From a virus: DNA of 30,121 bases. Positions 1,851 through 29,524 of this stretch are shown in pieces. The position numbers were made by a program, and so were the translations under genes. The stretch covers positions 1 to 30,121 of IMG/VR virus record IMGVR_UViG_3300040801_000816; one strand, given 5' to 3'. The notes under the pieces are model-generated. The model was not told the origin of the DNA, did not search any database, and saw nothing but the letters and a program-made list of their open reading frames with translations. Each line of letters starts with the position of its first letter. Positions within the stretch are counted from its first letter, which is position 1.

Positions 1851-2049
1851 ATCCTCCTGGTAAAGAAGTATTACACTCTCCACCTAAACTAAAATTTGGC
1901 AGATCAAAGTCTTCGACCCTCTCAGATCTTGGGGGTGGCAGTAGACCTTTCTTTATGCAATGTTTCTTCCACATTTCATTGAGTGTTGGTTCTCTTACTT
2001 TCATAGGATGCCATCTTTCAAGAAGGTCTTGTACGATACCATTACTCAT
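1837..2049 (-). CDS. Hypothetical 70-residue protein, coupled to the QueE-like gene
   Basis: No family is recognised. The start ATG overlaps the stop of the QueE-like gene (ATGA), which suggests translational coupling and supports that it is real. The N-terminal half is amphipathic and charged; a Pro-rich stretch (GLLPPPRSERVEDFDLP) follows, and the protein ends in a Gly-rich tail GGFIVP. Its last five codons overlap the end of the convergent homing endonuclease gene, so the original C-terminus may have been altered when that element arrived. Confidence 0.55.
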   Translation of the reverse strand: MSNGIVQDLLERWHPMKVREPTLNEMWKKHCIKKGLLPPPRSERVEDFDLPNFSLGGECNTSLPGGFIVP

Positions 2050-2843
2050 AACAACTCCAGTGATGGTGAATGCCTATATCCATTTTGGATACAAACAGAT
2101 ATACATTCTAATGGATTTTCTTTAGATTCCAAGAAGATTTTGTCTTTTGATAGCTTATATCGTTCTACAAACTCATCAATTTGTTCAATATTATCATTGT
2201 AATCAAATATAACAACCCAACTTTTGTGTTCAAAATGAGTCCATTCAACACCTTTCTGTCGTGAACTACGATGATTTGTCAATTGTGCAACTAAAGGGAA
2301 ACCTTTGACTACTTCAAGATTGGGACGAATATTAATATGAGAACGTTTGATCCAATCTGATATCTCTGGTTCAACTGGCATGGTTCCATTTGTTTCAATT
2401 TCATACGTTAAAGATCGTTGATCAAACTGCTCACTACTCAAACGTATAGCTTTAGCAACCTCAAGCTGCCAGAGTAATGGCTCACCTCCACAAAAGATAA
2501 CATTATTAAATTCACGATGTTCATTAAGCTTAAAAACTTTTGTAAAAAATTGTTCAGTATCTTTGAACGTTACTCTATTAGGTTTTTCTGGTAGATTGTT
2601 ATTCTTTCTCCTCGCTGCCATTTTAAGTTCATGGCTTGTATAATAATATTCACTGAATTTTTCTGCTGATAAAAGGTTGTTCCCAAAGTATCTGATATTC
2701 AAAGATACTTTTCCAACATTTGGACCACCAGTTTGAATCGTTATACGAGGCATCTCAGCCAAATAAATAGATTTGTCCCCAACTTCTGATTGAGGACCAA
2801 ATTGTCGTTTCATTAATTCGTCACTAAGCAAGTGTTCTAACAT
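2046..2843 (-). CDS. QueE-like protein lacking the radical-SAM cysteines
   Basis: This 265-residue protein resembles 7-carboxy-7-deazaguanine synthase (QueE), which converts carboxytetrahydropterin to CDG in the queuosine/preQ0 pathway. The family signs are FCGGEPLL at 117-124 (SAM-binding GGE) and YEIETNGT at 147-154. Where QueE has G-C-N-L-x-C-x-x-C, this protein reads GNNLLSAEK at 54-62, so all three [4Fe-4S] ligands are replaced (Asn55, Ser59, Lys62). The DNA there is in frame and uninterrupted, so a simple frameshift does not explain it. As it stands it cannot be a normal radical-SAM enzyme: it may be a substrate-binding or regulatory relic, or have another activity. It overlaps primase by seven bases upstream and the 70-residue gene by four downstream. 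Confidence 0.7.
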   Translation of the reverse strand: MLEHLLSDELMKRQFGPQSEVGDKSIYLAEMPRITIQTGGPNVGKVSLNIRYFGNNLLSAEKFSEYYYTSHELKMAARRKNNNLPEKPNRVTFKDTEQFFTKVFKLNEHREFNNVIFCGGEPLLWQLEVAKAIRLSSEQFDQRSLTYEIETNGTMPVEPEISDWIKRSHINIRPNLEVVKGFPLVAQLTNHRSSRQKGVEWTHFEHKSWVVIFDYNDNIEQIDEFVERYKLSKDKIFLESKENPLECISVCIQNGYRHSPSLELL

Positions 2844-4348: not shown

Positions 4349-4882
4349 TCACTTCTTTTTCTTGGATACCATTCCACCAAATTTATCTTTGATAGATTCT
4401 GCCCATTCTTCACCCATCACATGTATATACTCAATGGCTTGAGTTTGGGAGCATTCAAAATATTCAGCAACAAAAGAGCTAAGCTCATGCTTTACTTCAG
4501 ATTTATTTTTAATCCACTTATAAAAACGCTTATCAGTTGGAACTAAGTATATAAGAGCAGTGTATAGTTGCTTCTTTGTCATAGTCCCTTGATACTTATT
4601 AAAAAAGTTTGCAATTGGAACGTCAGCTTCTTTCATTGAAAGTGTTTGCAATATCATATAAGAATTCCATGAAGATTGATTCTCTTCTGAATCCAAAAGC
4701 GTTCCAGTTTTATGCTTTCTAATATCATCTACAAAATCAAACAGTGACAAAGATTTCTTTGGAGTTTCAACCTTATCATCTTGTTCATCAAGATCAAAGA
4801 CAACTTCTTTACCTCTAAAAGCTGAAACAATATCTGTTTGTTTGAAATCACTCTTCTTTGTTGTCTTCTTGCGTTTCGCCAT
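4349..4882 (-). CDS. 62: Clamp loader small subunit (T4 gp62-like)
   Basis: T4 gp62 joins four gp44 subunits to form the loader that opens clamp gp45. The similarity is modest but real: VPTDKRFYKWIKNKSEV here corresponds to VPRGKRYGKWAK of T4 gp62, followed by the AIEY helix (T4 AINY). Its place just before regA is the T4 order. The start at 4882 (177 residues, beginning MAKRKKTTKK) has GGAG nine bases upstream; a longer frame to 4915 is possible. The N-terminus is Lys-rich with an acidic linker before the conserved part, and the protein ends in four lysines. It overlaps the preceding unknown gene by 35 bases. Confidence 0.8.
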   Translation of the reverse strand: MAKRKKTTKKSDFKQTDIVSAFRGKEVVFDLDEQDDKVETPKKSLSLFDFVDDIRKHKTGTLLDSEENQSSWNSYMILQTLSMKEADVPIANFFNKYQGTMTKKQLYTALIYLVPTDKRFYKWIKNKSEVKHELSSFVAEYFECSQTQAIEYIHVMGEEWAESIKDKFGGMVSKKKK

Positions 4883-5270
4883 TTTCACTTTCTCCACGAA
4901 TAATTGGCTTTCCATCAGGCCCGCTCAATATTTTCTTATCATTAACGTTGGCGACATTACCAGACCCATCAAGTATACCAGGCTTTGGCTTTTCTTCTGG
5001 AGGCTCAACTTCTGGGATATGTTGTCTGATACTTTCCATAATCTTACCAGGAGTATCAGTGAAAATTGGACCGTCCATAACATAATGTTTGAACTCTTCA
5101 TCAGACATTCCATCAGTCATCATTGGAATCAATCGATACCAGACTTCCCATTCCATGAGTGTAGCTTCCATAGCAACCATTAATGCTGCCATGTCATCCA
5201 TTCTCTGCTGGATCATTTTTCTTGTCAAGTTCTTTTCATTTGGCTTTTTGCGAAATGCACTATTACCCAT
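4848..5270 (-). CDS. Hypothetical protein between genes 44 and 62
   Basis: No family is recognised in this 140-residue protein. The first 75 residues look helical and Met-rich (RMDDMAALMVAMEATLMEWE), and the rest is a Pro/Gly/Asp-rich, probably disordered tail. It overlaps its upstream neighbour by eight bases and gene 62 by 35. Its position inside the clamp-loader cluster suggests a role in replication or late transcription, but that is inference from context only. Confidence 0.7.
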   Translation of the reverse strand: MGNSAFRKKPNEKNLTRKMIQQRMDDMAALMVAMEATLMEWEVWYRLIPMMTDGMSDEEFKHYVMDGPIFTDTPGKIMESIRQHIPEVEPPEEKPKPGILDGSGNVANVNDKKILSGPDGKPIIRGESENGETQEDNKEE

Positions 5271-6411: not shown

Positions 6412-7338
6412 TTACCCCCTTAGCGTCTGAATAATCTCAATCAAACATGCTACAAAATTAAGTTCACGATTAGCGTGACTGGAATTTTGATACTGATAAT
6501 TCGCCAATAGAACGATAATTTCTCCGCCCTTCTCAGCATTTGTCGTCAAAGTTTTAATATTTTCATATAATGCATTATATAGACTATCATAATCTATACC
6601 TGCACTTAAGATTTCTTCACGAATTTTTCTTACAGAATGCTCTTTAACATAAGTTAAGAATTTTTCTAGGGTCTTCTTTTCTGCTCCAGACTCAACGAAA
6701 GAGAAAGTTCCATCTCTACAGCAACGCTGGAGATTATTAATTGTTGATCGAATATCAGGATAATATGTTTTAACTAGAATTCCAAGATCTTCTTTTGCTT
6801 TTGCATCTAGCTGAATTCCCTTTGAACTCATAATCTGCCAACAACGTTTAGCAATATCATTCTTGCTTGCACCTTTGAATTTGAAAGTTTGAAAACGAGA
6901 ACGAACTGGTTCTAATAACTTAGTCTCATAGTTTGCAGTCAATATAAATCGACATGTTTTTGCATATTGTTCCGTGACTGCACGCAAAATTTTCTGAGCG
7001 TCCAACGTAAGACCATCAGCCTCATCAAGAATAACAATCTTTAAATCAGCAAATGATGCCACAGAGCAGAAATCTTGAACTTTATTTCTGATAGTATCCA
7101 TACCACGTTCATCAGAAGCGTTGATATAAAGATATCCATCTTCTCCAGCAATATCTTTAGCTAAAATTTTTGCAGTTGTGGTCTTTCCAGTACCTGCAGT
7201 ACCTAGAAATAGAAGATGGGGAATAGAACGAGAATCAATATACTCGTTCATCTTCCCAACTAAATCTTCTGCACCAATTACGTCTTCTACTTTCTGGGGG
7301 CGATATTCTTCAACCCATGGGTAGTTTAAATCTTCCAT
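6412..7338 (-). CDS. 44: Clamp loader ATPase subunit (T4 gp44-like)
   Basis: A 308-residue AAA+ ATPase of the RFC type that, with gp62, loads clamp gp45 at primer ends. Motifs in order: the RFC N-terminal box WVEEYRPQKVEDVIG at 8-22, Walker A GTAGTGKTTT at about 46-55, Walker B LDEADGL, sensor 1 ILTANYE, and the arginine-finger SRF in EPVRSRFQTF. T4 gp44 is 319 residues. It lies directly downstream of gene 45, as in T4, with a 23-base gap. The assignment is secure. Confidence 0.95.
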   Translation of the reverse strand: MEDLNYPWVEEYRPQKVEDVIGAEDLVGKMNEYIDSRSIPHLLFLGTAGTGKTTTAKILAKDIAGEDGYLYINASDERGMDTIRNKVQDFCSVASFADLKIVILDEADGLTLDAQKILRAVTEQYAKTCRFILTANYETKLLEPVRSRFQTFKFKGASKNDIAKRCWQIMSSKGIQLDAKAKEDLGILVKTYYPDIRSTINNLQRCCRDGTFSFVESGAEKKTLEKFLTYVKEHSVRKIREEILSAGIDYDSLYNALYENIKTLTTNAEKGGEIIVLLANYQYQNSSHANRELNFVACLIEIIQTLRG

Positions 7339-7361: not shown

Positions 7362-8123
7362 TCATGATGATTTGATCATCTTAGAGATATAGTATACAGT
7401 AGAATTGAACTTATCTTCAGTTTCTACCATACATACTCTATCACCAAAACTTAGCTTCACTGATTCGTGCTTTGGACTTAACACCATCTGCATAATTTCC
7501 TTCTTGTAAGGAATATTAAAATCTTCAGACACTGTTGTATCAAGCTCAACTTGATAGCTATTTACTGCAACACTCTTATTACGAATAGTTGCACGAACAG
7601 TATTTGCAGTTTGATCACCTTCAACAATGATACATTCTTCATTGCTCAAAACGCTCATTGCTTTGGTAAACTTAGTGAACTTATCGTCATAATCAAAGCT
7701 TGCGAACCAATTAGAACCAGAGAATGGTTTATTGAATTCTTTAATCAAATCTGGATCAGCAGTCTGATAAATGATTTTTGATTTTCCTTGGGAAAGCTTG
7801 AGTTCTTTCGTCTCTTCATCAAACTCAAAGACTACTTCTCCATCATCAAAGAGCGAGAACAGATTTACAAATTCTCCAATTCTTAAAATTCCAATCTTGC
7901 AGCCATCATCAGAATCTACAGTGAAATCTTTGAATAATTCTTTGTAGTCTGATTTAATAACAGTTCCTACACTATTATTAATTGCATTAATTTTAGCCCC
8001 AACAGTATCATCTTCTACTGTAATGTTTAAGACAATACCATTTTCACCCATAATTAGTCCAAAGTTCTTAAGTGGATTTACAAAATTATCCAACTCAGAC
8101 TTACTAGCAAACTTACCTTTCAT
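7362..8123 (-). CDS. 45: Sliding clamp (T4 gp45-like)
   Basis: This 253-residue protein sits immediately upstream of gene 44, as in T4, and fits the gp45 clamp (228 residues in T4), the trimeric ring that tethers the polymerase and activates late transcription. Sequence evidence is the position plus the clamp-like pattern of beta strands, including IGILRIGEFVNLFSLFDDGEVVFEF and a C-terminal VETEDKFNSTVYYISKM. It has its own extended -10 promoter and a GGGAG ribosome site. It is the presumed partner of the IEDMFG/IEDLFG tails found on four other proteins here. Confidence 0.88.
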   Translation of the reverse strand: MKGKFASKSELDNFVNPLKNFGLIMGENGIVLNITVEDDTVGAKINAINNSVGTVIKSDYKELFKDFTVDSDDGCKIGILRIGEFVNLFSLFDDGEVVFEFDEETKELKLSQGKSKIIYQTADPDLIKEFNKPFSGSNWFASFDYDDKFTKFTKAMSVLSNEECIIVEGDQTANTVRATIRNKSVAVNSYQVELDTTVSEDFNIPYKKEIMQMVLSPKHESVKLSFGDRVCMVETEDKFNSTVYYISKMIKSS

Positions 8124-15309: not shown

Positions 15310-15635
15310 TATCCAAATAAATCTTCGATTGAATCTACATCTACATCCTTGAAGCCAGGTACACTCATTCCATATTCATTTTGTACAAATCTTAACAAAA
15401 TCGCTTTATTACTTTCATCTAATTTCTTATATATTTGATCAGGGTTAACCCCAAAATATTCACACACTCCCGTTGTTATTTCTACGGGTGTATAGTTTGT
15501 ACAATCAAATAGTCTTTTAAATAATTTATTAATAGCTTCTTTTTCAATTTTATGAACTTGTTGAGGAGATATTGATAATTTTGTCCCTATTTCCTCATAA
15601 GTCAAGTTCTTTTGTATTTTCAGATTCTTCGACAT
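15309..15635 (-). CDS. 33: Late transcription coactivator (T4 gp33-like) with sigma region 4-type helix-turn-helix
   Basis: A 108-residue protein in the T4 position upstream of gene 59. T4 gp33 (112 residues) binds the RNA polymerase beta flap like sigma region 4 and binds clamp gp45 by its C-terminus. Here residues 10-38 read like a genuine sigma region 4 helix-turn-helix (LTYEEIGTKLSISPQQVHKI, then EKEAINKL), which is stronger sigma likeness than expected for gp33. The C-terminus ends DSIEDLFG, close to the tails of the DNA polymerase and two modification enzymes. It overlaps the end of gene 41 by 41 bases. Alternatively it could be a divergent sigma factor; gene order favours gp33. Confidence 0.8.
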   Translation of the reverse strand: MSKNLKIQKNLTYEEIGTKLSISPQQVHKIEKEAINKLFKRLFDCTNYTPVEITTGVCEYFGVNPDQIYKKLDESNKAILLRFVQNEYGMSVPGFKDVDVDSIEDLFG

Positions 15636-18556: not shown

Positions 18557-21175
18557 TCACCCAAACATATCTTCAATATCTTCAGTGTCAAAACTTGGCA
18601 ATTGCCAGTTCAAAATACTATAAAACACCTTTAGTGGCTCTACCCAAACTTTCTGTGCCATTTTGTCAACATCAATTATGACACCAAATTCTTTAGGCAA
18701 CGTACCTTTCCAAGATATGACATCATGTGCATAATCCATGAAGCTTTGACAATTTTTAATATACACGACTTTTACTTTGTCACCTTCATAAATGGATTCA
18801 TAATCATTTTCAATCCCTGCACGCTTTAATAATGCATTGTATCCAATACACCCTTTAATATGGAATGGAGTTCCTTTAATTGGTTCGCCATCTAATCCAG
18901 TCCATTTGGCAATATTGTTCGCACTACTATTTTTAGCAATATCATTCGCTTCACTGCTTACCATCTCAGTGTAAATAGCCTTTACATAATCATTGGTTTT
19001 CTTCTTATCTTGTGTCTGAAGTAATACTTTATAGAATTCAATCAATTTCTCACGAGTCTTTTCTGGAGTGCTTGATCGAACTGCTTCTAAACCTTTGACT
19101 TCAATTTCATGATCACTTCCAGGATGCACTGGACCATCTTCCCCAATAATCACCCACGCCACATAACGCTTCTTGGCAATGAATATGCCACGGCGAGCAA
19201 CCATTTCACGCTTAAACACAATCATGCATTCTGGACAATTCATGGCTTTAAGAGCTAGCTTCTTTTCAGCAGCATCAATTACTTTCACGAAGATTGGAGA
19301 AATCTTTTCATCCAAGAACTTCGCAGCTTTCTGTGTATCATCAAAATCTTTGTACCCAAAGCTTTCAAGCACTGCACCAGCATGAGTATATAGTGAGTCA
19401 GTATCACCGTAGACGACTGTATTAGGAATAGGTTTAGCACCAACCTTAGTTCCAGGTCCAGATTCAGCCCATTTTTCCCTAAAGAAATCATCAACTGAAT
19501 CCATGGCAGTCTTAATTACTTCTTGTCCAGTTGCAGTTACAGCTAATGCATTATCTTTATCGTAGAAACGAGAATAGATGGTCCCAACATACCCATAAAC
19601 TGAGTTAATCAAGATCTTATAGTTTTGTTGAAGCATCTTGTTAAGACGCTCACCATCAACATCACCTTCTTCGTGACACTTAAACTGAAGTTTCTTATGT
19701 GTCTGACGATTATCAAACCATTCTTTAACGAAACGAGAAATAATTCCAGGTTTATCATGTCGATATACTGCCCCATTAGAGGCAATCGAATAATTATTAT
19801 CTTTGATTTCAGTTACCATGTCAGAAACAGTCATACCATCGTCAGTAGCTTCAACATTCTTTTCCCATGTCTCAACTTCTTCACCAGACAAGATTAATTT
19901 AATAATCTCTGTTGCTTTTCTGTTGCACTTATAAACTTTTGTTTCTGGAGAAATGTTGTGTTGCATCATAATCGATGGATATAGAGACGTTGCATCGTAA
20001 GAAATAATCCAATCCCAACAACCAACTCTCGGATCTTTAACAAATGCACCATCATATTCTGAGTCCTCACTTGGATCTGAGTCAGGAACGATAATTTTAT
20101 CCAACATCAAGCGAGATATAAATGCTCCATCAAGAACACGCACTGTTTTCTGGAATTGTTCAAATGGAACACGACAGTTATAGCAAATACCAAACATCAT
20201 ATCCATAAAACCAAGCTTCTGATCCAAGCGAACCAGAAGACCAACGTCTTGGATGTTATATTCAACATAACGTTGCCAGTTATTATTATACAATTCTTTT
20301 ATTGAACCTGTATACGCTAGCTTCTTTTCATCAATTTCAACTTTAGCGATATAATCAAGCTTGTATGATGATTGTTCAACTGGTCGATATTTCTTATACA
20401 AATCAATATAATCAATTAAGTTAATACCTGCAATTTCATATACTTCTTGTTCACGACCAAATCGAAGTTTCTTGGTAACAGATTTGATAAACCCAATTGG
20501 AGACAATTGATTAGTTTTCTTTTCTCCTAAAAGTTTATATCCACGATTAATGATATATGGAATATCGAATAAATTACTATTCCAACCAGAAATCACATCT
20601 GGATGTGTTTTCTTGACAAAACCAATAAAAGTTTCAATGAGTTCTTCTTCTGTATCAAAGCATTTCACCCAGTCTTTATCAGAAAGAACTTGATTTCCAT
20701 CTTCATCAACATAATTTCTATCAAATTCTTTCTCTGCAAAAACAAAATAACGTTGATACTTAGTCGAGTATACTGTAATTACAGTAATAGGCCAAGCAGC
20801 GTCTTCTGCTTTTGGGAACCCTTTCTCAGAGTGAACTTCAATATCCAAAAAGTGAATATCAAATTTTGGCTTTTCAAAATCTACACCAGACCATTTATCA
20901 AGTAAATATCTATTTTCAACATCAATATCAGATTCATATAAGTTTCTACCTGCAGCTTTATACATCTCTTTAGCTTCACGCATTTTCCCATACGTCTCAA
21001 AAGTCTTTCTTTTAACATTATTTCCAAATATACTCTTGTACTCAGATTCTTCATCAGTTGGGATATAGAAATAAAGTGGTGCAGAGTCTTTAATATAGAC
21101 CTTTTCACCATTTTCATTATATTCCCAACAATGAATCGTATTACTGTTTCTTGAATAATAAGTAGAACTATACAT
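18557..21175 (-). CDS. 43: DNA polymerase (T4 gp43-like, family B)
   Basis: The 872-residue replicative polymerase (T4 gp43, 898). Exonuclease motifs: FLDIEVHSE with Asp111/Glu113 (T4 Asp112/Glu114), WNSNLFDIPYI, and YNIQDVGLL. Polymerase motifs: A, DATSLYPSIM; B, KILINSVYGYVG; C, YGDTDSLY. The last eight residues, EDIEDMFG, correspond to the C-terminal peptide with which T4/RB69 polymerase binds clamp gp45, and recur at the end of two modification enzymes in this window. It lies downstream of dut; no promoter was seen in its short leader, which has a GGAG ribosome site. Confidence 0.97.
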   Translation of the reverse strand: MYSSTYYSRNSNTIHCWEYNENGEKVYIKDSAPLYFYIPTDEESEYKSIFGNNVKRKTFETYGKMREAKEMYKAAGRNLYESDIDVENRYLLDKWSGVDFEKPKFDIHFLDIEVHSEKGFPKAEDAAWPITVITVYSTKYQRYFVFAEKEFDRNYVDEDGNQVLSDKDWVKCFDTEEELIETFIGFVKKTHPDVISGWNSNLFDIPYIINRGYKLLGEKKTNQLSPIGFIKSVTKKLRFGREQEVYEIAGINLIDYIDLYKKYRPVEQSSYKLDYIAKVEIDEKKLAYTGSIKELYNNNWQRYVEYNIQDVGLLVRLDQKLGFMDMMFGICYNCRVPFEQFQKTVRVLDGAFISRLMLDKIIVPDSDPSEDSEYDGAFVKDPRVGCWDWIISYDATSLYPSIMMQHNISPETKVYKCNRKATEIIKLILSGEEVETWEKNVEATDDGMTVSDMVTEIKDNNYSIASNGAVYRHDKPGIISRFVKEWFDNRQTHKKLQFKCHEEGDVDGERLNKMLQQNYKILINSVYGYVGTIYSRFYDKDNALAVTATGQEVIKTAMDSVDDFFREKWAESGPGTKVGAKPIPNTVVYGDTDSLYTHAGAVLESFGYKDFDDTQKAAKFLDEKISPIFVKVIDAAEKKLALKAMNCPECMIVFKREMVARRGIFIAKKRYVAWVIIGEDGPVHPGSDHEIEVKGLEAVRSSTPEKTREKLIEFYKVLLQTQDKKKTNDYVKAIYTEMVSSEANDIAKNSSANNIAKWTGLDGEPIKGTPFHIKGCIGYNALLKRAGIENDYESIYEGDKVKVVYIKNCQSFMDYAHDVISWKGTLPKEFGVIIDVDKMAQKVWVEPLKVFYSILNWQLPSFDTEDIEDMFG

Positions 21176-21197
21176 TAAATCTCTTCTCCGTTATATT

Positions 21198-21674
21198 TTA
21201 CTGTCCTGTTGATCCAAGTCCAGCATCGCCTCTAATTTCATTTGTTGGCTTGTTTTCCAATTGAACTAAAGAAGTAATTGGAACTTCTTTTAGCACCATC
21301 TGTGCAATCTTATCACCCTCTTCAAGTGTAACAGGCTCTTTGGATGAGTTGTATAGAATTACCATAATTTCACCCGTATAGTCTGCATCGATTGTTCCAG
21401 GGGTATTCAATACAGTTAGACCTTTCTTAGCAGCATTTCCAGATCGTGGTCGAATCTGTGCTTCCCATCCAGGCATCAACTTTAAGTGAACCCCAGTGTG
21501 ACAAATCCATCGATCCCCAGGCCCAATAACAAGCCCACATGGCTTGACGAGGTCTGTCTCAGCATCGAATGCTAAAAACAAATCAAATCCAGCATCATAA
21601 ACATGAGCTTTTTCTGGGAGCCTTGCTTTTGGATAGTCTATAATATTAAGCCAACATCCGAATTCTCTGATCAT
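21198..21674 (-). CDS. dut: dUTP diphosphatase
   Basis: A 158-residue trimeric-type dUTPase that hydrolyses dUTP to dUMP, keeping uracil out of DNA and supplying thymidylate synthesis. All five family motifs are present: AGFDLFLAF, RPRSGNAAKKG, NTPGTIDADYTGEI, GDKIAQMVL, and the C-terminal RGDAGLGSTG. Its ATG overlaps the preceding stop by one base (TGATG). T4 itself uses a different enzyme (gp56), so this is a common but non-T4 solution. Confidence 0.95.
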   Translation of the reverse strand: MIREFGCWLNIIDYPKARLPEKAHVYDAGFDLFLAFDAETDLVKPCGLVIGPGDRWICHTGVHLKLMPGWEAQIRPRSGNAAKKGLTVLNTPGTIDADYTGEIMVILYNSSKEPVTLEEGDKIAQMVLKEVPITSLVQLENKPTNEIRGDAGLGSTGQ

Positions 21675-22096
21675 CAGTCAATCTCCAAGTCTGAAAAATC
21701 TGGAACTTCTTCTGATAAATCAGAGTCTGGCTCAAGATCATCGTCATGAGTATGAACTTCTCTTCTAACGTCAAGAAGTTCATCTTCAACATCATCATCA
21801 TCAGGGGTCATAATAGAAGATGACATTGGTGTAGTTTCATCTTCTTCACTTGGCTCTTGGATACCAATTTCTTCAGCGAGTGCTTCACAAACCCCATCTG
21901 GACTCAGTGACATAAGCTTCAAATACTTCTTAAACTCATCTGGACTTAATGGACCACAGAGAGACGGAGCACCGCGACCCGTTCCAAGCTTACGGAACTC
22001 TCGGATATCAACGTCAACTTCACCATCGTCCCAGACTACAGCTTTAATTTGAAATGCTTTCTTTGGCTTTTCTTCTTTATCTTCATCACTCATCAT
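21674..22096 (-). CDS. Hypothetical acidic protein
   Basis: No family is recognised in this 140-residue protein. The first 70 residues look folded (FQIKAVVWDDGEVDVDIREF, then GPLSPDEFKKYLKLMSLSPD), and the remainder is a long Asp/Glu/Ser-rich tail ending SDLEID. The ATG pair at 22096/22093 follows AAAGGAG; either may be used. It has its own extended -10 promoter and is coupled to dut. Confidence 0.7.
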   Translation of the reverse strand: MMSDEDKEEKPKKAFQIKAVVWDDGEVDVDIREFRKLGTGRGAPSLCGPLSPDEFKKYLKLMSLSPDGVCEALAEEIGIQEPSEEDETTPMSSSIMTPDDDDVEDELLDVRREVHTHDDDLEPDSDLSEEVPDFSDLEID

Positions 22097-22131
22097 TTAC
22101 TCCTTTAAAATGATATCATTTGTGACCAACT

Positions 22132-22137
22132 ATTATA
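22132..22137 (-). promoter_or_regulatory. Extended -10 promoter for the acidic protein, dut and polymerase
   Basis: The minus strand reads CTTGTTATAATAG (TGnTATAAT), with TTGCAC 17 bases upstream as a partial -35. It lies about 35 bases before the ATG. A short inverted repeat, ACAAG with CTTGT, overlaps the spacer. Confidence 0.6.
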
Positions 22138-22161
22138 ACAAGCTACTTGTTGAGGTGCAAT

Positions 22162-22446
22162 TTATTTTTGTTTGGATACCCACTTAGAATGTTTCATAAT
22201 TGCAGGATCATTTATAATTTTTTCAGATGTATTAAATTCTTTTCCAAGGGTTTTTTCATCATATAGATCGTGTATTCCGCTATGACACATTCTGCAAATA
22301 TTCATTCCATCATTTAATTGATCTTTTGTGAAGTTTTTCTTATACCATTTTTTACTATGTAAAGTTTTTGGTATTAAATGATGAAATGTTAATTTAATTT
22401 CTCTTTTGCATAATGGACAGACTCCATATTTTTCACGACAACCCAT
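22162..22446 (-). CDS. HNH endonuclease-like protein
   Basis: A 94-residue protein with the HNH layout: CPLC near residue 10, the catalytic FHHLIPK with paired histidines at about 22-23, then NICRMCHSGIHDLYD with the second cysteine pair and a C-terminal histidine. HNH proteins cut DNA with one metal ion. The start at 22446 has GAGAGG seven bases upstream; a TTG at 22452 is less likely. It overlaps the PD-(D/E)XK gene by 14 bases and is on the same strand as its neighbours, unlike the two homing genes. It may be part of a two-nuclease module, or a free-standing HNH element. Confidence 0.8.
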   Translation of the reverse strand: MGCREKYGVCPLCKREIKLTFHHLIPKTLHSKKWYKKNFTKDQLNDGMNICRMCHSGIHDLYDEKTLGKEFNTSEKIINDPAIMKHSKWVSKQK

Positions 22447-23104
22447 TATCAAGCCTCTCTTTTATAATTTTACGCAAATTTTTTGCATGATTAGAATCTA
22501 TACGAATCCAGTCTTTGTAATATTCTTTTGGTATCTTTGGATTATTCAAAGACGCACCACGATAAAGATAAGTTCTATTATGTTCTTTGAACATTTCTAA
22601 CATTCTATTACATGTATATCCATTTGGGTGGTCTTTTAATTCTTCATATTGTTTGACAGAATAAAGCTTTTTCATAACAAAACGTGCTTCTTCCATGGTG
22701 TAGTATTTCTTTCTTCCAAATGTAGCATGGACCATCTTTTTATCGATTCGATCAACCAGCATATCTGATATACTTAAACCCCTTCGAATATCATTCTCCC
22801 AAAAATCTAACCAGTCTTTCATTTGTTCAGGAGAACCATATACACAATGATTCAAAGTGGCATCTTTATTATAAATTCCTATAATCCAATGTTGATGTCG
22901 CCATTTATTAATATGATCTAATGCTAAAGGAGATGCTGAAGATACTGAACCAGTAGTGGTGGATTTAATTTCAAAATCAAACACATTTTTTCTATATCGA
23001 AGTCGGGCATCTATCCCAATACGATTATGATTCGTTTTTTTCAGACGAAATAATTTAGTAAGTTCAGCTTCACGTTCGTTATCTTGAATCTCTACTATGT
23101 CCAT
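22433..23104 (-). CDS. Restriction-type PD-(D/E)XK nuclease
   Basis: A 223-residue protein whose first 80 residues carry a PD-(D/E)XK core like that of type II restriction enzymes: Asp32 in GIDARLRY, then 12 residues on FEIKSTTTGSVSSAS with Glu45 and Lys47, then HINKWRHQHWIIGIY. The C-terminal half (about 100-223) is a basic, helical region that may recognise DNA. No methyltransferase is encoded in the window. In a phage whose own DNA carries modified bases, such an enzyme could degrade unmodified host DNA; that is inference. A TGnTATAAT element ends seven bases before the ATG, with no clear ribosome site, so the transcript may be leaderless. Confidence 0.72.
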   Translation of the reverse strand: MDIVEIQDNEREAELTKLFRLKKTNHNRIGIDARLRYRKNVFDFEIKSTTTGSVSSASPLALDHINKWRHQHWIIGIYNKDATLNHCVYGSPEQMKDWLDFWENDIRRGLSISDMLVDRIDKKMVHATFGRKKYYTMEEARFVMKKLYSVKQYEELKDHPNGYTCNRMLEMFKEHNRTYLYRGASLNNPKIPKEYYKDWIRIDSNHAKNLRKIIKERLDNGLS

Positions 23105-23111
23105 CCATAGT

Positions 23112-23117
23112 ATTATA
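23112..23117 (-). promoter_or_regulatory. Extended -10 promoter for the PD-(D/E)XK gene
   Basis: The minus strand reads CTTGCTATAATAC, a TGnTATAAT extended -10, in the 27-base gap before the nuclease gene. The ATG is seven bases beyond the hexamer, so any transcript would start at or next to the start codon. Confidence 0.5.
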
Positions 23118-23131
23118 GCAAGCCGTAAAGT

Positions 23132-23461
23132 TTATCCAGCTACTTTTTCTTTTGCCTTTTTGAAGTCTTCCATTTTTTCTCTTTGTTTTTGATCTTCAAT
23201 GACTTCTTTGGCTACTTCTTCTCTCATAATTCCAGCAGCTTTCAATGCTTTTTGTTTCTTTCTTTCTAAATGTTCTTGGAGTACAACTCTACGTCTTACT
23301 TCTGGAATGGATCGAACAATTCTTGCAATTTCAACAAAACACTGAGCAGATTGCTCATGTTTTTCTTTCCCTAAGCGTCTTAATGCTTCAGTTAAAGTTT
23401 TTTCAATTGCATCATTGCAATCAGTCTCAGTCCAATTTCTTGGTACTTTATGGTAAGCCAT
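23132..23461 (-). CDS. Hypothetical helical protein
   Basis: No family is recognised. This 109-residue protein is Lys/Glu/Arg-rich and probably forms long helices, with a likely coiled coil in the C-terminal half (VVLQEHLERKKQKALKAAG). It begins two bases after the glycosyltransferase stop and so belongs to the same operon. Confidence 0.7.
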   Translation of the reverse strand: MAYHKVPRNWTETDCNDAIEKTLTEALRRLGKEKHEQSAQCFVEIARIVRSIPEVRRRVVLQEHLERKKQKALKAAGIMREEVAKEVIEDQKQREKMEDFKKAKEKVAG

Positions 23462-23463
23462 GG

Positions 23464-24228
23464 TTAATCTCCAAACATATCTTCAATATTGTCCAGCGAC
23501 TCGTCTTTCTTTTTTGTTGGACGAGTCTGCATGTGGAATGGTAGGGTTTTTCTACCATACCAATTTCTTAAACATTTCACATCATCTCCGAGATCATGAC
23601 GATGATGTGGGAGGTGAATCACATGTGTAATGTAAGTGTCCAAGAAAATCATTTCATCAGACATTTCCCCCCATTTTTCAGCCCATCTACTTCTGAACTT
23701 AATATCAGCTAGAGCAGAGGTGATTTCTTCTGGATAGATCGCATCACGATCAGTTATCCTAGAACTACCAATGTTAAACAGTTGGAAGAATCCACTCGCA
23801 TAACATGGATCTTTTTTGGACATTTTGATATCTATTCCTTTTTCCCATAACAAGAAATCATCATAGTATCTAATTTTTAATCGTTTTGTACCGTGAATAC
23901 ATTCTGGATTTAATTCTTCTTTTTCAATTAAATCTCTGAAATTATCTTGCAGTATAATGTCTGCATCAAATGTACATAACCAATCTGAACGAGACATAGT
24001 ATTCCACCCATCATTCAGAGCTTTACCTTTATTAAATTTAGCATCATCTTCGTATAAGCGATCAGATATAACATATCGTACACCATTGTCATCACAAACT
24101 TTTTTAGTTTCTTCATCACGATCTACAGTGACAATTGCGATATCATCGAAATAATCTTTATTTCGTGGAAGAGTGTGCTCAAGATAATCTGCATAATCTA
24201 CACATACAAGACATGCTTCTATTTTCAT
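23464..24228 (-). CDS. Family-2 (GT-A) glycosyltransferase with clamp-binding-like tail
   Basis: A 254-residue GT-A fold enzyme that would move a sugar from a nucleotide sugar to an acceptor. The N-terminal half shows the usual pattern: IEACLVCVDYADYLEHTL, then IAIVTVDRDEE, NKGKALNDGW, and a metal-binding DxD at Asp88-Ala-Asp90 in CTFDADIIL. The C-terminal region is His/Arg-rich (HVIHLPHHRHDLGDD) and the protein ends SLDNIEDMFGD, nearly the tail of DNA polymerase. T4 alpha-glucosyltransferase, which modifies phage DNA, is reported to bind clamp gp45, so a DNA-directed role is plausible. It sits in the deazaguanine operon. Donor sugar is unknown; dTDP-sugars from the Rml genes are a candidate. 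Confidence 0.82.
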   Translation of the reverse strand: MKIEACLVCVDYADYLEHTLPRNKDYFDDIAIVTVDRDEETKKVCDDNGVRYVISDRLYEDDAKFNKGKALNDGWNTMSRSDWLCTFDADIILQDNFRDLIEKEELNPECIHGTKRLKIRYYDDFLLWEKGIDIKMSKKDPCYASGFFQLFNIGSSRITDRDAIYPEEITSALADIKFRSRWAEKWGEMSDEMIFLDTYITHVIHLPHHRHDLGDDVKCLRNWYGRKTLPFHMQTRPTKKKDESLDNIEDMFGD

Positions 24229-24240
24229 TTTAGCCCCCTT

Positions 24241-25083
24241 TCAGAAGACTACATTAGTATTTAAAACATCAGAGTAGTAATTTCCAAAATCTTTTTTAAT
24301 GTTGTTCTTTCTATTAAGTATCATTTTAACAAATTCTTGCTTAGTTGGCAATGATTTCTTTGGTTTTAATTCTTCATAATGATCTATAAAGTTTTTGTAA
24401 ATATTTAAAAACTTATCGTCTGGCATAGACTCTATTTTATCTAATAAAGGACTAATCACATTTGGATCAAGAGTGATCTCCCCATCCATATGTGCATCTG
24501 CAATATCCGAATAAACAGTCTTAACATTTTCATATGGTTGATAATCTGGATCTAATTCATCATCCCCAAAAAATTGAAACCCAAGATTCCTGTCAATAGC
24601 CAGTGTTTTATTTTCCTTGTCATCTTCATGATCGACGCTAATAAACTGATCAGAGTGAATGTCATAATTGCTTATTAACCAGTCAATGACTTGCTCTTTC
24701 TGATACTGTTCAACCATTTCTGAAGTCATCTCTTTTGACGTAGACGACGCAGTATCAATAAATGGTTTAAAAGACCCTAACTTTTCTTCACCATTGATTT
24801 CTAACGTGGTGGCTATAGTTGGCACATAATCACCATCAGGCATAAGAGTTCTTTGTAGACGACTTGCTAATTCTTCTACGTAAGGTGACCAGTCATCTGC
24901 TGGTTTGAACAAATATTTTTTATTATTTAATTTTGATACGAAGAAATGTTTTGGGAATGCACCACCAAGATCTTTTTTGGCACTCCCTTCGTATTCAAGA
25001 TCTGATGATAAAACATCATTTAATTCTGTGTCATCCCACCAATCTTCATTGAAAACATCAATTATTCTTCTTTTCAATTTCAT
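24241..25083 (-). CDS. Atypical kinase-like protein (HipA/PI3K-like fold)
   Basis: A 280-residue protein with the order of motifs seen in atypical kinases of the HipA/PI3-kinase type: KKYLFKP with a candidate ATP-binding Lys near residue 60, EELASRLQRTL with a pairing Glu, a catalytic-loop-like NYDIHSDQF, and a metal-binding-like AIDRNLGFQFFG. Related domains occur in phage minor head proteins. The substrate could be a protein or a small molecule. It starts 26 bases inside the end of queC, so it is translated with the modification operon. Kinase activity is inferred from motifs only. Confidence 0.6.
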   Translation of the reverse strand: MKLKRRIIDVFNEDWWDDTELNDVLSSDLEYEGSAKKDLGGAFPKHFFVSKLNNKKYLFKPADDWSPYVEELASRLQRTLMPDGDYVPTIATTLEINGEEKLGSFKPFIDTASSTSKEMTSEMVEQYQKEQVIDWLISNYDIHSDQFISVDHEDDKENKTLAIDRNLGFQFFGDDELDPDYQPYENVKTVYSDIADAHMDGEITLDPNVISPLLDKIESMPDDKFLNIYKNFIDHYEELKPKKSLPTKQEFVKMILNRKNNIKKDFGNYYSDVLNTNVVF

Positions 25084-25885
25084 AACTTACTTCCAACTTA
25101 CCACTAATTATCATATCGTAAAGCTTAAAATGCTCAGCAATTCGCTTTGATGTAAATCTAGTAGTGTCATTGGTTTCAGCAGCTTTAGGTATCTCTCTAC
25201 GCATCTCTTCTGCATAATCAGTAGACAATGGATTGGTTTCGTAACCTTCTTCCACTATACCATTTAACAAGAAGGCAGTATAACGTTTGTAGCAAGTTAA
25301 ACATTCTCCACACTTTTCTTTCTCTCCATGATAACATGAGCTAGTTTGGAACAATAAATCTAAAGGCATACCATTGTCTAATGCCCAAGTGATAGTTTCA
25401 GCTTTGGTCATTTTGGCAAATGGAGATTCAATAATGGTTTTATCTTGGAAAAAAGAATTTGTGAATGTTAGTAGTTCACTAGTATCATCAAAGAAGCGAA
25501 CACTCTTATCGTGTTCTTTTCCATTTTGTTCTCCATCCAATGCATTGATCCACACTCTGGGTGCAAACATAGAACCAATAGTCGCCAACATAACGTTGCG
25601 ACTTGGTATAATTTGGTTTGATAATCGTGATTGAATTAACGGAATCAGACCATTTATACGAAGTTCTCTAACATTGGGGACAAACCTTAACCAGTCTTCA
25701 TTATTGGTATATGCTTGAGAGACGATATTATGCATAGCATTAAGTTCTTTGTGTGCATATTCATGATCCATATCTACAAATAAACATAATGGCTTTATGC
25801 CAAGTTGATGTTTTGCGTAGCTATAAGCAATCAGACTATCAAGCCCACCGCTATACATAATTGTTACATCATATTTATTTTCCAT
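25058..25885 (-). CDS. queC: 7-cyano-7-deazaguanine (preQ0) synthase QueC
   Basis: QueC uses ATP and ammonia to turn 7-carboxy-7-deazaguanine into preQ0. The 275-residue protein has the PP-loop SGGLDS at 12-17, the family PSRN motif in IIPSRNVML at about 92-100, and the zinc site Cys184, Cys192, Cys195, Cys198 (CGECLTC). The start at 25885 (MENKYDVTIMYSGG) is chosen because GGGAG lies eight bases upstream; a longer frame to 25900 would place that site inside the gene. It is slightly longer than E. coli QueC (231). Together with folE and the DpdA-like gene it points to a deazaguanine base in the phage DNA. Confidence 0.93.
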   Translation of the reverse strand: MENKYDVTIMYSGGLDSLIAYSYAKHQLGIKPLCLFVDMDHEYAHKELNAMHNIVSQAYTNNEDWLRFVPNVRELRINGLIPLIQSRLSNQIIPSRNVMLATIGSMFAPRVWINALDGEQNGKEHDKSVRFFDDTSELLTFTNSFFQDKTIIESPFAKMTKAETITWALDNGMPLDLLFQTSSCYHGEKEKCGECLTCYKRYTAFLLNGIVEEGYETNPLSTDYAEEMRREIPKAAETNDTTRFTSKRIAEHFKLYDMIISGKLEVSYEIEKKNN

Positions 25886-26363
25886 ATTGATCACTCCCAT
25901 CTCTGTTTAGCCCACGATCCCCTTCGATCATTTTCTCGTCTTCTTCATATGGCATCACAATCCAATGTTGTGTTTTAATACCATATGTTATAAGTTTCTC
26001 TTTAAAAGTATCAGTTTCTTGATACTTTCCATCAATAAGAACTGGTGCGAATTTCCAATCAAATTGATATTGAATCCCAAATCCAGAATACTCATTATAA
26101 ATCAATTCAAAAGTTCTTCCTTCTGCGACGAGATCCTCTACAAAAACAACACGAGATAAATATTCATTCGTATTCATCAATATCTTGGAAGTTTTAGGAG
26201 AATACATTCCAATTGGAATGTTAAGATGTTTAGCAATAATATGTGAAGCTGAAAGACCTCCACGAGAAACTGCAATAATCTCATGAGGATCATATTCTTT
26301 CATATTATCTGCCATAGATAAACAGATATTTTTGAATGTTTTATAATCCAACATCGTTTTCAT
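25875..26363 (-). CDS. Phosphoribosyltransferase, purine type
   Basis: A 162-residue type I PRTase. The PRPP-binding signature is VVFVEDLVAEGRTFE, and EIIAVSRGGLSASHIIAKHL resembles the beta-strand and loop of xanthine/guanine-type enzymes. It would attach PRPP ribose phosphate to a free base. Because a DpdA-type exchange releases guanine from DNA, recapture of that guanine is an attractive role; salvage of a deazaguanine base is an alternative. It overlaps the HAD gene by four bases and queC by 11. The base used is not shown by the sequence. Confidence 0.8.
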   Translation of the reverse strand: MKTMLDYKTFKNICLSMADNMKEYDPHEIIAVSRGGLSASHIIAKHLNIPIGMYSPKTSKILMNTNEYLSRVVFVEDLVAEGRTFELIYNEYSGFGIQYQFDWKFAPVLIDGKYQETDTFKEKLITYGIKTQHWIVMPYEEDEKMIEGDRGLNRDGSDQYGK

Positions 26364-26809
26364 AATCTAAACTCTTCAAAATAAAGATTAAGTTGGGTTC
26401 CAAAATGATAGACTGGAATTGGACATAATTTTTTCAATTCTACAACTTGATTCCAATCGCTTTCTATAAAACACACCATTCTTAAATCTTCATCTTGGGA
26501 AGCATAATGACTTATCCAACGTGCTTTATGGTATATGACATGATCAATACCCCAATCTTTTCCAGATTTGGTAGCCATGTGTAAACGATGGGGTCCAATT
26601 TCATATTTGTTTAACCATTTCCAAGTTGGAGATTCGTCTTCTTCTGGACGACCTGTAATAATAACAAAATCTCCACTAGGATAAAATGTTGGATACATTT
26701 GATCTCTTAGCTGATGTAATTTATCAATTGCTTCTTTACTGACATCACCATCCCATTGAACGTCGGCACATATTACACCATCTAAATCATATCCTATAAC
26801 AGTTCTCAT
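26360..26809 (-). CDS. HAD-superfamily phosphatase
   Basis: A 149-residue HAD-like protein. Motif I is GYDLDGVI with the Asp-x-Asp pair near residues 7-9, motif II-type IITGRP follows, and FIESD near the C-terminal third may supply the last acidic motif. Likely a nucleotidase or small-molecule phosphatase. The start at 26809 was chosen because GGGAG lies five bases upstream and the upstream stop ends three bases before it; the in-frame ATG at 26821 overlaps that ribosome site. It lies between the radical-SAM and PRTase genes, so a nucleotide substrate fits. Confidence 0.78.
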   Translation of the reverse strand: MRTVIGYDLDGVICADVQWDGDVSKEAIDKLHQLRDQMYPTFYPSGDFVIITGRPEEDESPTWKWLNKYEIGPHRLHMATKSGKDWGIDHVIYHKARWISHYASQDEDLRMVCFIESDWNQVVELKKLCPIPVYHFGTQLNLYFEEFRL

Positions 26810-26811
26810 AT

Positions 26812-27459
26812 TTACTCCCATGTTTGGGGTGCAACATTACATGTCTTACAAAGTGGGATTCTTTCAGATTTATACTCATGCCCATTAAGAAGATCATCGA
26901 CTGTTAATTGTAACTGCTTTTCTGCTTCAATGCAACAAGTATTAATATATCCATCCCAGAGAACTACATACGTATTCTCATCAAGATAAACACATTTTTG
27001 TCCATATTCGACATTTGTTCCACCTTTACCCCAATCATGATTCTCTTCTGGAGTTCTTCCATAGACAGTAACTTTAGGTAATACATCACTCGCTAACCAA
27101 ATGATTTCTTCATCTACAGGTTTATGGAGAGAAATAACTAATTCATCTAATCCAGTTTCTTTGAGTTGGTGGATCCTTTTCTCATTTAACATAACTGCAT
27201 TAGTTGACATTCTAGTATATGGAAGCCTAGAAGAAGCAATCGTTAAGAATTCCATAATTTTTGGATGCATTAATGGCTCTCCAAAATTATGGAAAGCAAC
27301 AGGTTTCTTTTCTGGTGCTCTCTCGCAGAGTTCCATAACTTTCATGAAAGTTTCTGGAGACATAAACCCTTTTGGTCGCTCCATAGTTGGTTGAGGACAA
27401 TATGAACATTTCAGATTACAATGTCCCACTAACTCTACTTGAAATGGGTGCTGATTCAT
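26812..27459 (-). CDS. Radical SAM protein with short SPASM-like C-terminus
   Basis: A 215-residue radical-SAM enzyme with an intact cluster motif: GHCNLKCSYC near residues 12-21 (CxxxCxxC), and HNFGEPLMHP in place of GGEP. The C-terminal part has further cysteines in a SPASM-like order (GQKCVYL, then DGYINTCC, then PLCKTC), which may bind a second cluster. It is short for the class. Its ATG overlaps the DpdA-like stop by four bases. It may modify the deazaguanine base or a precursor; no substrate can be read from the sequence. It could also stand in for the degenerate QueE, but it does not resemble QueE outside the core. Confidence 0.85.
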   Translation of the reverse strand: MNQHPFQVELVGHCNLKCSYCPQPTMERPKGFMSPETFMKVMELCERAPEKKPVAFHNFGEPLMHPKIMEFLTIASSRLPYTRMSTNAVMLNEKRIHQLKETGLDELVISLHKPVDEEIIWLASDVLPKVTVYGRTPEENHDWGKGGTNVEYGQKCVYLDENTYVVLWDGYINTCCIEAEKQLQLTVDDLLNGHEYKSERIPLCKTCNVAPQTWE

Positions 27460-28697
27460 CCGAACATATCCTCAATAGATTCGCTTTCCTGTTCACTCTT
27501 ATGAGGATTCCCCAGCAGACCGATGTTCTTTTCGATAACATGATGTGCAGTTCCCTGTGGAGCATCAAACATCTTATCGATGACTTTGAACGTTTTAAGC
27601 TGTTCTGTCTTAAAACAAGTCTCCCAAAGCTCAGGACAACCAGTGTAAATAAGACTATGAAGCATGCTTACATATTCAACTAACATATACACATTATGAC
27701 TCTGAACGACATTATAAAAAAGCGATTCGCTACTACTCTTGAGAGCGTCTTCATTCAGAATATCCAAATGAGTATAACCATCACATACAGGACACTTACA
27801 TGGAAGAGGAGTATCATCAAATTGTCCAATTAGACGATTCGACAAGTGATAGCTCATAAATCCAGTTGAGCTTGGATAAAGAAGATATTTTCCCCAGCCA
27901 CCATTCTGAGTAGCATATGAACTATCAAAACTTACATTGATCTTATATCCACGTTGATTCATTTTATATTTCAAGTAAATCATAATTGGCATAAAGCGTG
28001 TTGATGATAAACCAAAGAAGTGAATTAGTTTGCAGCGTTCTTCATTACTGAATTCATCATTATCCATAAGAACTGAAAATGCAATCAAAACAACATACAT
28101 GTTCTTACGAAGAGATCCAAGTGCCCAACCATTATGGACATCAAGATCTTTAATGTTATTATACCAATAATCGCGTTGATCAAACGAGTGACCGTGAAGA
28201 ACATTCAACCAATCAAATTCAGATTTGAATCCACGCTTCTGTAGATATCCCACATTTTCTTTTGTTTTCTTAATAGCTTCATCCATGTCAGCATGAGTAA
28301 GATTATTTGTATCACTACGAATACTCCATGGTGGAACGTCAATGATTGGTGCTACAGTTGAGTTCCCTTCCATCCAAGTATAAAGTTTTTCAAGAGTTTC
28401 ATCATCACATTTCAGTTCTCCAGTACCAATCTGGAACCCACCAGAGTCACCGAATACAATGTCAGTATCCTTTTCTAGATCATTGATACCAATGCTCTTC
28501 ATGAAATCGACATCCTTGTAGTTGTGACCTGCAGAAGTCAAAATATATGGGTGATGAAAACACTGTTCTTCTGGAGTCATTCCATTTAAATAGAATCTTG
28601 GACTCTTCCCATTCACTTTCCAATTATTTTTCATAATGGATGTGTGTGTAGCAATCGAAATTGCTGGGAAGAAAATGGCTTTTTCGTCGTATTTCAT
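27456..28697 (-). CDS. dpdA: DpdA-like transglycosylase (TGT family) with clamp-binding-like tail
   Basis: A 413-residue tRNA-guanine transglycosylase-like protein of the kind that exchanges guanine for a 7-deazaguanine base in DNA. Signs: FGDSGGFQIGTG with Asp84 (TGT has DSGGFQ), VSFDSS with Asp258 where TGT carries its nucleophile Asp, and a complete zinc site CKCPVC (Cys300, 302, 305) plus SHNVYMLVEY (His334). The C-terminus ends SESIEDMFG, the same six residues as DNA polymerase, suggesting clamp binding. It lies in an operon with folE and queC. Family and zinc site are clear; that DNA is its target is inferred from context. Confidence 0.87.
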   Translation of the reverse strand: MKYDEKAIFFPAISIATHTSIMKNNWKVNGKSPRFYLNGMTPEEQCFHHPYILTSAGHNYKDVDFMKSIGINDLEKDTDIVFGDSGGFQIGTGELKCDDETLEKLYTWMEGNSTVAPIIDVPPWSIRSDTNNLTHADMDEAIKKTKENVGYLQKRGFKSEFDWLNVLHGHSFDQRDYWYNNIKDLDVHNGWALGSLRKNMYVVLIAFSVLMDNDEFSNEERCKLIHFFGLSSTRFMPIMIYLKYKMNQRGYKINVSFDSSYATQNGGWGKYLLYPSSTGFMSYHLSNRLIGQFDDTPLPCKCPVCDGYTHLDILNEDALKSSSESLFYNVVQSHNVYMLVEYVSMLHSLIYTGCPELWETCFKTEQLKTFKVIDKMFDAPQGTAHHVIEKNIGLLGNPHKSEQESESIEDMFG

Positions 28698-28703
28698 ATT
28701 AAA

Positions 28704-28895
28704 TTATTCACTCACTTTCTTCAAATCTGCATAGATATTAGCAGCTTCACGCATATCAACATTATTGTCGTCAATCATAACTTTTAGTCTATTGGCTATA
28801 GAATCAATTCTTTTTTTAGCAATTCTTTTTTGGATTTCTTCTGACCAATTATTATCTGGAGAATGATTCCAAGGTATACTAAATTCAAAGTCCAT
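28704..28895 (-). CDS. Hypothetical 63-residue protein
   Basis: No family is recognised. The ATG region overlaps the folE stop by one base, and the gene ends six bases before the DpdA-like start, so it is part of the operon. It is a basic, helical protein (KRIAKKRIDSIANRLKVMID) and could be a small accessory to its neighbours. Confidence 0.65.
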   Translation of the reverse strand: MDFEFSIPWNHSPDNNWSEEIQKRIAKKRIDSIANRLKVMIDDNNVDMREAANIYADLKKVSE

Positions 28896-29524
28896 CAGTT
28901 CGCCTTTATATTACATACGTCAAAGAATTCTTTACGAGTTTCTGGATTTTCTGCAAATGCCCCACGAACAGAACTAGTATACATCCATGAATTAGGTTCT
29001 TCAACACCACGAATGGTCATACAATGATGCTGAGAACGAATAACAACGATAACACCTTTTGGATTCAAAAGGTCTTGAATATAATTTGCAATTTGTTGAT
29101 TCAATTCTTCTTGAATTTGTGGTCGTCTCATGAAGAATTGTGTTATTCTAGCCAACTTTGATAGACCAACAACTTCTTTATCAGGAATATATCCAACCCA
29201 AGCATGACCAATGAAAGGACAATAATGATGAGAACACATAGATTTCACTGAAATTGGTCCAGAGATGATCATTTCATCATAATCTTTAGTGTTTGGGAAT
29301 TTTGTAATGTTTGGTGGTTCTGAATAACAACCAACTAATAGCTCATCCATGTACATTTTAGCCATACGTTTAGGAGTTTCTCTTTGATTTGGGTCATTTT
29401 CCCAATCGAACCCCAATTCACTAAGCATATTCTGGAATATTTTTTCCAATTTTTCTTTTTTCTCTTGTTTTTCTTCTTTTGATAGGATTAAATTACCATT
29501 AGATAATATTTTTTTATCGCACAT
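28895..29524 (-). CDS. folE: GTP cyclohydrolase I (FolE)
   Basis: A 209-residue FolE that turns GTP into dihydroneopterin triphosphate, the first step both of folate and of 7-deazaguanine synthesis. The active-site zinc ligands are Cys97 and His100 in SMCSHHYCPF and Cys168 in QHHCMTIRG; GHAWVGYIPDKEVVGLSKLARI (about 107-127, shown in part) and RTPKR-like RETPKRMAKMY are also typical. It is the first gene after a perfect promoter, with GGAG five bases before the ATG. Context with queC and dpdA favours DNA modification rather than folate. Confidence 0.95.
   Translation of the reverse strand: MCDKKILSNGNLILSKEEKQEKKEKLEKIFQNMLSELGFDWENDPNQRETPKRMAKMYMDELLVGCYSEPPNITKFPNTKDYDEMIISGPISVKSMCSHHYCPFIGHAWVGYIPDKEVVGLSKLARITQFFMRRPQIQEELNQQIANYIQDLLNPKGVIVVIRSQHHCMTIRGVEEPNSWMYTSSVRGAFAENPETRKEFFDVCNIKAN

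Follow-up and report, generated by a model that had tools for sequence, protein, structure and literature searches.

Predicted sliding-clamp-binding tails on a DpdA-like transglycosylase and a GT2-like glycosyltransferase candidate of a T4-like phage

The viral record IMGVR_UViG_3300040801_000816 of IMG/VR supplied the 30,121-nucleotide stretch analysed here (the window), which comes from a T4-like phage, covers 30 kb of its genome and includes genes for the DNA polymerase, the sliding clamp, the clamp loader (gp44/gp62) and RegA. Two of the encoded proteins, both putative DNA-modifying enzymes (one a DpdA-like transglycosylase, the other GT2-like), share their short C-terminal peptide, IED[ML]FG, with the DNA polymerase and a gp33-like protein. 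In T4, gp43, gp55 and gp33 bind the clamp gp45 through interchangeable C-terminal motifs carried on flexible linkers (PMC2988020, PMC7892883); the window has the same kind of short C-terminal motif but differs in that the peptide is also found on base-modifying enzymes. The shared tail is likely a clamp-binding peptide of the gp43/gp33/gp55 kind, by which the DpdA-like enzyme, and probably the GT2-like enzyme, would hang on gp45, and the probability of this reading is put at roughly 0.78.

Four shared C-terminal ends in the window

IED[ML]FG is encoded at only four places in the window, each of them a protein C-terminus and all on the minus strand (Table 1). A degenerate DNA scan for IEDxFG across the window, whose reversed-pattern control gave 0 matches, found no further copy, and chance would yield about 9e-6 such C-termini in 35 proteins if amino acids occurred as often as they do in 15 proteins of the window. 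The first-pass annotation had named these four protein ends, all of which were confirmed; the region it gave (18557-28697) holds three of the tailed genes and leaves the gp33-like gene outside, and the GT2-like protein does carry the shared IEDMFG, its strict ending being IEDMFGD with an extra D. The tail proved neither common among other proteins of the phage nor missing in close relatives, two outcomes that the annotation had said would speak against it. Scanning 2.9 million viral contigs for exact IEDMFG followed by a stop returned 1 place, with no recognisable protein end there.

The DpdA-like enzyme carries the motifs DSGGFQ, FDSS and CxCxxC...H, and its AlphaFold model (36 sequences) has a predicted local distance difference test score (pLDDT) of 87 and a predicted template modelling score (pTM) of 0.90, with PDB matches to archaeosine and queuine tRNA transglycosylases and to DpdA 7UI4. 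It is thus predicted to have the tRNA-guanine transglycosylase (TGT) fold with its catalytic motifs that is expected of a DpdA, and genes for preQ0 synthesis (FolE, QueC and a QueE-like enzyme) are co-encoded; QueD was not seen in the 30-kb fragment, and the enzyme had no PHROGs family match. Residues 404-413 have pLDDT below 50 and are modelled as disordered beyond the folded TGT domain, so the tail is predicted to hang outside the fold, resembling the T4 gp55 motif on its linker. In sequence, the tail is a hydrophobic-acidic C-terminal peptide like that of the enzyme's own polymerase, identical to it in the window and tracking it in relatives.

The enzyme could instead be a tRNA transglycosylase, in which case the clamp tail would be irrelevant to DNA modification. 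The archaeosine and queuine tRNA transglycosylases are closer folds than DpdA 7UI4, and QueC was not detectable in most related T4-type genomes tested; since this includes most genomes tested with a GT4-dpdA-clamp order (described below), the base inserted there may be host-derived or different. A tRNA enzyme is nevertheless quite improbable, as the window itself holds FolE, QueC and the QueE-like gene, the tail and gene linkage point to the replication clamp, and the clamp-adjacent enzyme of 9g and CAjan is the DpdA of phages with 7-deazaguanine in their DNA (PMC6884629).

A single IMG/VR contig (L005/L006) encodes both enzymes, the DpdA-like one 84% and the GT2-like one 77% identical to those of the window. 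Its tails read IEDMFGV (DpdA), IEEIFGE (GT2) and IEEIFGC (polymerase), so that the polymerase and GT2 ends share two identical changes, D to E and M to I. The codons for IEEIFG differ between the two genes, which indicates parallel change rather than gene conversion or DNA copying. The polymerase frame of this relative is broken by an intein-like insertion with an endonuclease-like open reading frame (ORF) (L006:9879-14443).

Table 1. Features of the window with their coordinates, strand and supporting evidence.
Feature	Coordinates	Strand	Evidence or remark
C-terminal IEDMFG of the DpdA-like enzyme (...ESESIEDMFG)	27459..27476	-	kept as IEDMFGV in L005
IEDMFG of the GT2-like protein (...DNIEDMFGD)	23470..23487	-	followed by D; orthologue IEEIFG
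C-terminal IEDMFG of the polymerase (...DTEDIEDMFG)	18560..18577	-	position of the known gp43 clamp-binding peptide (T4 ...SLDFLFG)
C-terminal IEDLFG of the gp33-like protein (...DVDSIEDLFG)	15312..15329	-	direct sequence reading
DpdA-like (TGT-fold) base-exchange enzyme, 413 aa	27456..28697	-	Pfam TGT E=8.5e-6, just under cut-off; NCBIfam TgtA 1.5e-5
GT2-like glycosyltransferase candidate, 254 aa	23464..24228	-	weak Pfam GT2-family matches, E=0.005-0.016, below cut-offs
T4-type family B DNA polymerase (gp43), 872 aa	18557..21175	-	phrog_262 E=2e-216; matches RB69 and T4 polymerases in PDB
gp33-like late-transcription coactivator candidate, 108 aa	15309..15635	-	Pfam Sigma70_r4 E=2e-6
gp45-type sliding clamp, presumed docking partner	7362..8123	-	phrog_223 E=1.4e-14; iterative clamp profile E=1e-43
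Clamp loader large subunit (gp44)	6412..7338	-	AAA 1.5e-13, Gp44_lid 9.8e-6
Clamp loader small subunit (gp62)	4349..4915	-	phrog_225 E=1e-21
QueC (preQ0 synthesis)	25058..25900	-	PF06508 E=6e-19
FolE (GTP cyclohydrolase I)	28895..29524	-	TIGR00063 E=4e-56, above cut-off
QueE-like radical SAM enzyme	2046..2843	-	TIGR04508 E=1.5e-6, below cut-off
Second radical SAM enzyme adjoining dpdA	26812..27459	-	radical SAM maturase-type matches, best 6.5e-24, below cut-offs

No direct gp33 match was found for the gp33-like protein, a candidate coactivator by its sigma region 4 match and IEDLFG end; the Pfam match to sigma-70 region 4 makes the proposed sigma-4-like nature of gp33 visible from sequence. 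Within the dpdA-QueC cluster lie a phosphoribosyltransferase-like gene (25875-26363, minus strand) and a gene for a 153-aa protein (26360-26821, minus strand), for which a role in base salvage or activation is possible.

DpdA tails and clamp genes in other phages

In uncultured phages, 80 DpdA-like loci came to light through a scan based on alignment. Proteins were clustered at 60% identity and a tail was scored where a hydrophobic-aromatic pair stood near the end with at most four residues after it. T4-type DpdA clusters had such a tail in 12 of 17 cases, compared with 49 of 891 other ORFs of the same loci (p=1.4e-11, indicative only, as tail p-values are optimistic where the regular expressions were chosen after the tails had been seen), and 35/37 polymerases had it too. 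The definition used is simpler than a first regular expression, which demanded a hydrophobic residue three positions ahead of LF/FF, proved too strict for T4-type tails (7/17 clusters, p=4e-5) and was dropped.

The DpdA tails also resemble the polymerase tail of their own genome more than that of permuted partners (p=0.0005-0.002, 14 representatives), and when the last nine residues were compared with those of the polymerase, DpdA ranked first of its locus in 18/29 genomes. Polymerase and DpdA end in NKFFKF and NKFFKF in G008, in IESFFEF and IETFFDF in G012, in NIDDLFG and ITDLWQ in G004, and in NNTDLFDW and NNNDLFGW in Vibrio phage 2.275. The linker ahead of the DpdA motif is variable in both length and sequence.

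Clamp genes were sought with a profile seeded with T4 gp45, the window clamp and the clamps of Vibrio 2.275 and PA5oct. Of 73 loci with enough sequence, 50 have the clamp gene immediately downstream of dpdA, and in PA5oct and Vibrio 2.275 it stands between polymerase and dpdA. No clamp gene was found with this profile in loci L021-L023. The DpdA of Phosso ends IVEGLF, which is suggestive; its neighbouring gene is not a recognisable clamp.

A parallel set is provided by phage 9g, where the gene for DpdA, the founding phage member of its family (PMC6884629), adjoins that of a beta-type clamp. All 84 complete DpdAs of this 9g-type family (84/84) end in LF- or LY-type pairs, 71 of them exactly in LF, the commonest ends being QELF, QQLF, RELF or MELF. 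By cluster, the LF-type end occurs in 11/11 against 4/640 other ORFs (p=7e-21), and in 82/83 loci dpdA has a DnaN-type clamp gene on its own strand no more than 1 kb away. The bacterial clamp motif is a C-terminal QL(S/D)LF (PMC9690074); compared with bacterial beta-clamp clients, 9g-type DpdAs have a similar LF, with Q usually one place nearer to it, and such ends as QELF, QQLF and MELF beside a DnaN-type clamp gene may point to the same kind of docking.

DpdAs of Mycobacterium, Arthrobacter, Bacteroides and P. putida phages have no LF-type ending, and no clamp was found in these phage genomes with the phage-clamp profile that detects those of 9g, CAjan and MS1. For the P. putida phage, a T4-type polymerase was not found and a gp45-type clamp was not separately sought. 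The Pfam beta-clamp domain had been tried as a detector and was dropped in favour of the phage-clamp profile, as it missed even 9g, CAjan and MS1.

The tails might be a C-terminal signal for a partner other than the clamp, such as the replication compartment or a replisome protein like SSB or helicase, since a short hydrophobic-acidic peptide could suit other partners and clamp binding here is a prediction. This is judged improbable: the tail sits where gp43, gp55 and gp33 have their established clamp motif (PMC2988020, PMC7892883), phages with gp45-type clamps have a different type of tail from those with DnaN-type clamps while dpdA is clamp-linked in both, and phages without a detected clamp lack it. 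A structural explanation, in which LF/FF ends are remnants of the TGT fold kept for folding and only accidentally like a clamp motif, draws on the 9g-type motif lying close after the last helix and being nearly invariant. It is highly improbable given that the last ten residues of the window enzyme are unstructured and beyond the fold, the linker varies, the DpdAs of phages in which no clamp was detected keep the fold and lack the motif, and the tails track the variant of their own polymerase.

Clamp binding thus stays the preferred explanation of the DpdA tail. The first-pass annotation had proposed that two base-modifying enzymes bear a clamp peptide, and its DpdA part is strongly supported by the tails in relatives, the match to the own polymerase, the clamp-gene adjacency, the parallel DnaN-type set and the lack of tails where no clamp was detected. 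Its wording that the enzymes had gained the polymerase's peptide suggests a local event and needs revising: clamp-type tails seem to be of long standing among phage DpdAs and to have recurred.

Glycosyltransferases near dpdA

The GT2-like protein is less readily placed. Pfam GT2 matches have E=0.005-0.03 in both orthologues, all under the cut-off, and a sequence search of the PDB gave 0 matches; relatives numbered none in INPHARED, one in IMG/VR and none in 25 further related genomes. The one orthologue (L006:6181-6942) ends IEEIFG. Genes resembling RmlB and RmlD of dTDP-sugar synthesis lie at 10952-12376 and 12631-13632 on the minus strand and could provide the GT2-like enzyme with a deoxysugar donor.

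In other dpdA loci, GT4-type glycosyltransferases with polymerase-like ends were found (L021, L075, L079, L080 and L083). That of L021 ends ...SITDLFS where the polymerase ends NIDDLFC, and those of L075, L079, L080 and L083 end ...SFFE/Q, with the polymerase end ADFFSF in L075 and L083; the L024 member of this tailed family has no tail. Another GT4 family is encoded directly upstream of dpdA in 58/77 loci, and the order GT4-dpdA-clamp occurs in 43/67 loci with both flanks (for example L057:8770-11959). Most glycosyltransferases of these GT-dpdA-clamp loci are without a tail. GT4 proteins whose genes overlap the dpdA start (L082:7967-9232, L085:1849-3087, L086:8721-9986) end in QLELF or QMELF, which approach the bacterial beta-clamp consensus; the phages in question are relatives of ones with a gp45-type clamp. 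In Vibrio phage nt-1 the ArcS-like ORF388 (L144:3416-4096) ends NSLANFF and the polymerase TLESFFG, a likeness seen in one lineage only.

The GT2-like protein is probably a clamp-tethered glycosyltransferase, to judge from its end. A competing account grants that the DpdA tail binds the clamp and holds that the GT2-like protein does not act on DNA, modifying virion or other targets with a tail that is incidental or serves another purpose. Its sub-cut-off family matches, its lack of orthologues outside two contigs and the dTDP-sugar genes of the window, which could serve surface glycans, fit this account. It is nonetheless rather unlikely, as the polymerase has the same tail and its end underwent the parallel change, polymerase-like tails occur on unrelated GT4-type enzymes encoded near dpdA elsewhere, and GT4 genes so often stand directly upstream of dpdA.

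T4 alpha-glucosyltransferase had been put forward as a precedent. In a pull-down it co-purifies with gp45 while beta-glucosyltransferase does not (PMC13216743; alpha-glucosyltransferase-gp45 binding also in Sommer 2004), so the binding stands; the peptide does not, as a gp43-like tail is absent from T4 alpha- and beta-glucosyltransferase, gp42, uvsX, gp41 and others checked, and the precedent therefore does not rest on this peptide. As is predicted for the window enzymes, alpha-glucosyltransferase modifies DNA and binds the clamp; it differs in having no such C-terminal motif and in acting on hydroxymethylcytosine.

Opposing points, known systems and implications

Several observations weigh against clamp tethering as the general explanation, along with the optimism of the p-values. 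In at least five DpdA clusters (PA5oct, G029/G032, G025, G007 and G005) the motif is not strictly terminal, being internal, shifted or degenerate, in some cases 8-35 residues inside and weaker. DpdA2 of Vibrio phage nt-1 has no tail despite a T4-type polymerase, and this phage makes dPreQ0 (PMC6884629). In the clade of the window, 20 kb separate dpdA from the clamp gene. The GT2 part of the first-pass claim is thinner than the DpdA part, resting on two orthologous sequences and a sub-threshold family match. For T4 alpha-glucosyltransferase, binding to gp45 reportedly does not chiefly account for the part of the glucosylation that this enzyme contributes (PMC13216743), a warning that modification levels in vivo may not be set mainly by clamp binding.

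In the proposed mechanism, the DpdA-like enzyme, and probably the glycosyltransferase, would use, through the tail, the docking site on gp45 that serves gp43, gp55 and gp33 in T4. The gp45 ring would bring DpdA to newly replicated phage DNA, and exchange of guanine for 7-deazaguanine would follow the fork. As the clamp is the phage's own, phage DNA would be modified in preference to that of the host; the glycosyltransferase would act on the same DNA as DpdA. The tailed enzymes may compete with the polymerase for the clamp; this competition, like the chemical product, is something we infer.

Phage DpdA and DpdA2 (9g, CAjan, Rosebush, nt-1; Hutinet 2019, PMC6884629) resemble what is predicted for the window system, a TGT-fold enzyme that inserts 7-deazaguanines and is encoded alongside FolE, QueC and QueE-type genes. 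The window enzyme is far from 9g DpdA in sequence, and a clamp tail or linkage is not described in the DpdA literature searched. In eukaryotes, Dnmt1 is a base modifier carried to new DNA by the clamp PCNA (PMC9690074), differing in being a methyltransferase, with both protein and modification unrelated. Clamp-tethered modification and DpdA are thus each known, and their combination, with two clamp types and a tie to the clamp gene, is new to the literature searched, which leaves out most subscription papers and in which no link between DpdA and a sliding clamp was found.

A wider proposal can be made only tentatively: that in uncultured T4-like phages a glycosyltransferase-transglycosylase-clamp cassette puts glycosylated 7-deazaguanine-type bases directly behind the fork, both enzymes riding the clamp, which would be a platform that couples hypermodification to replication and restricts modification to phage DNA. 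Clamp tethering, if true, would offer a simple answer to how base-exchange enzymes reach fresh phage DNA and spare that of the host, namely by docking on the phage clamp. The hypothesis is testable in phages already in culture, CAjan and 9g among them, and the tail would be a sequence handle for finding more replication-coupled DNA-modifying enzymes. The arrangement is seen with two clamp types and so has the look of a general rule in the design of phage DNA hypermodification.

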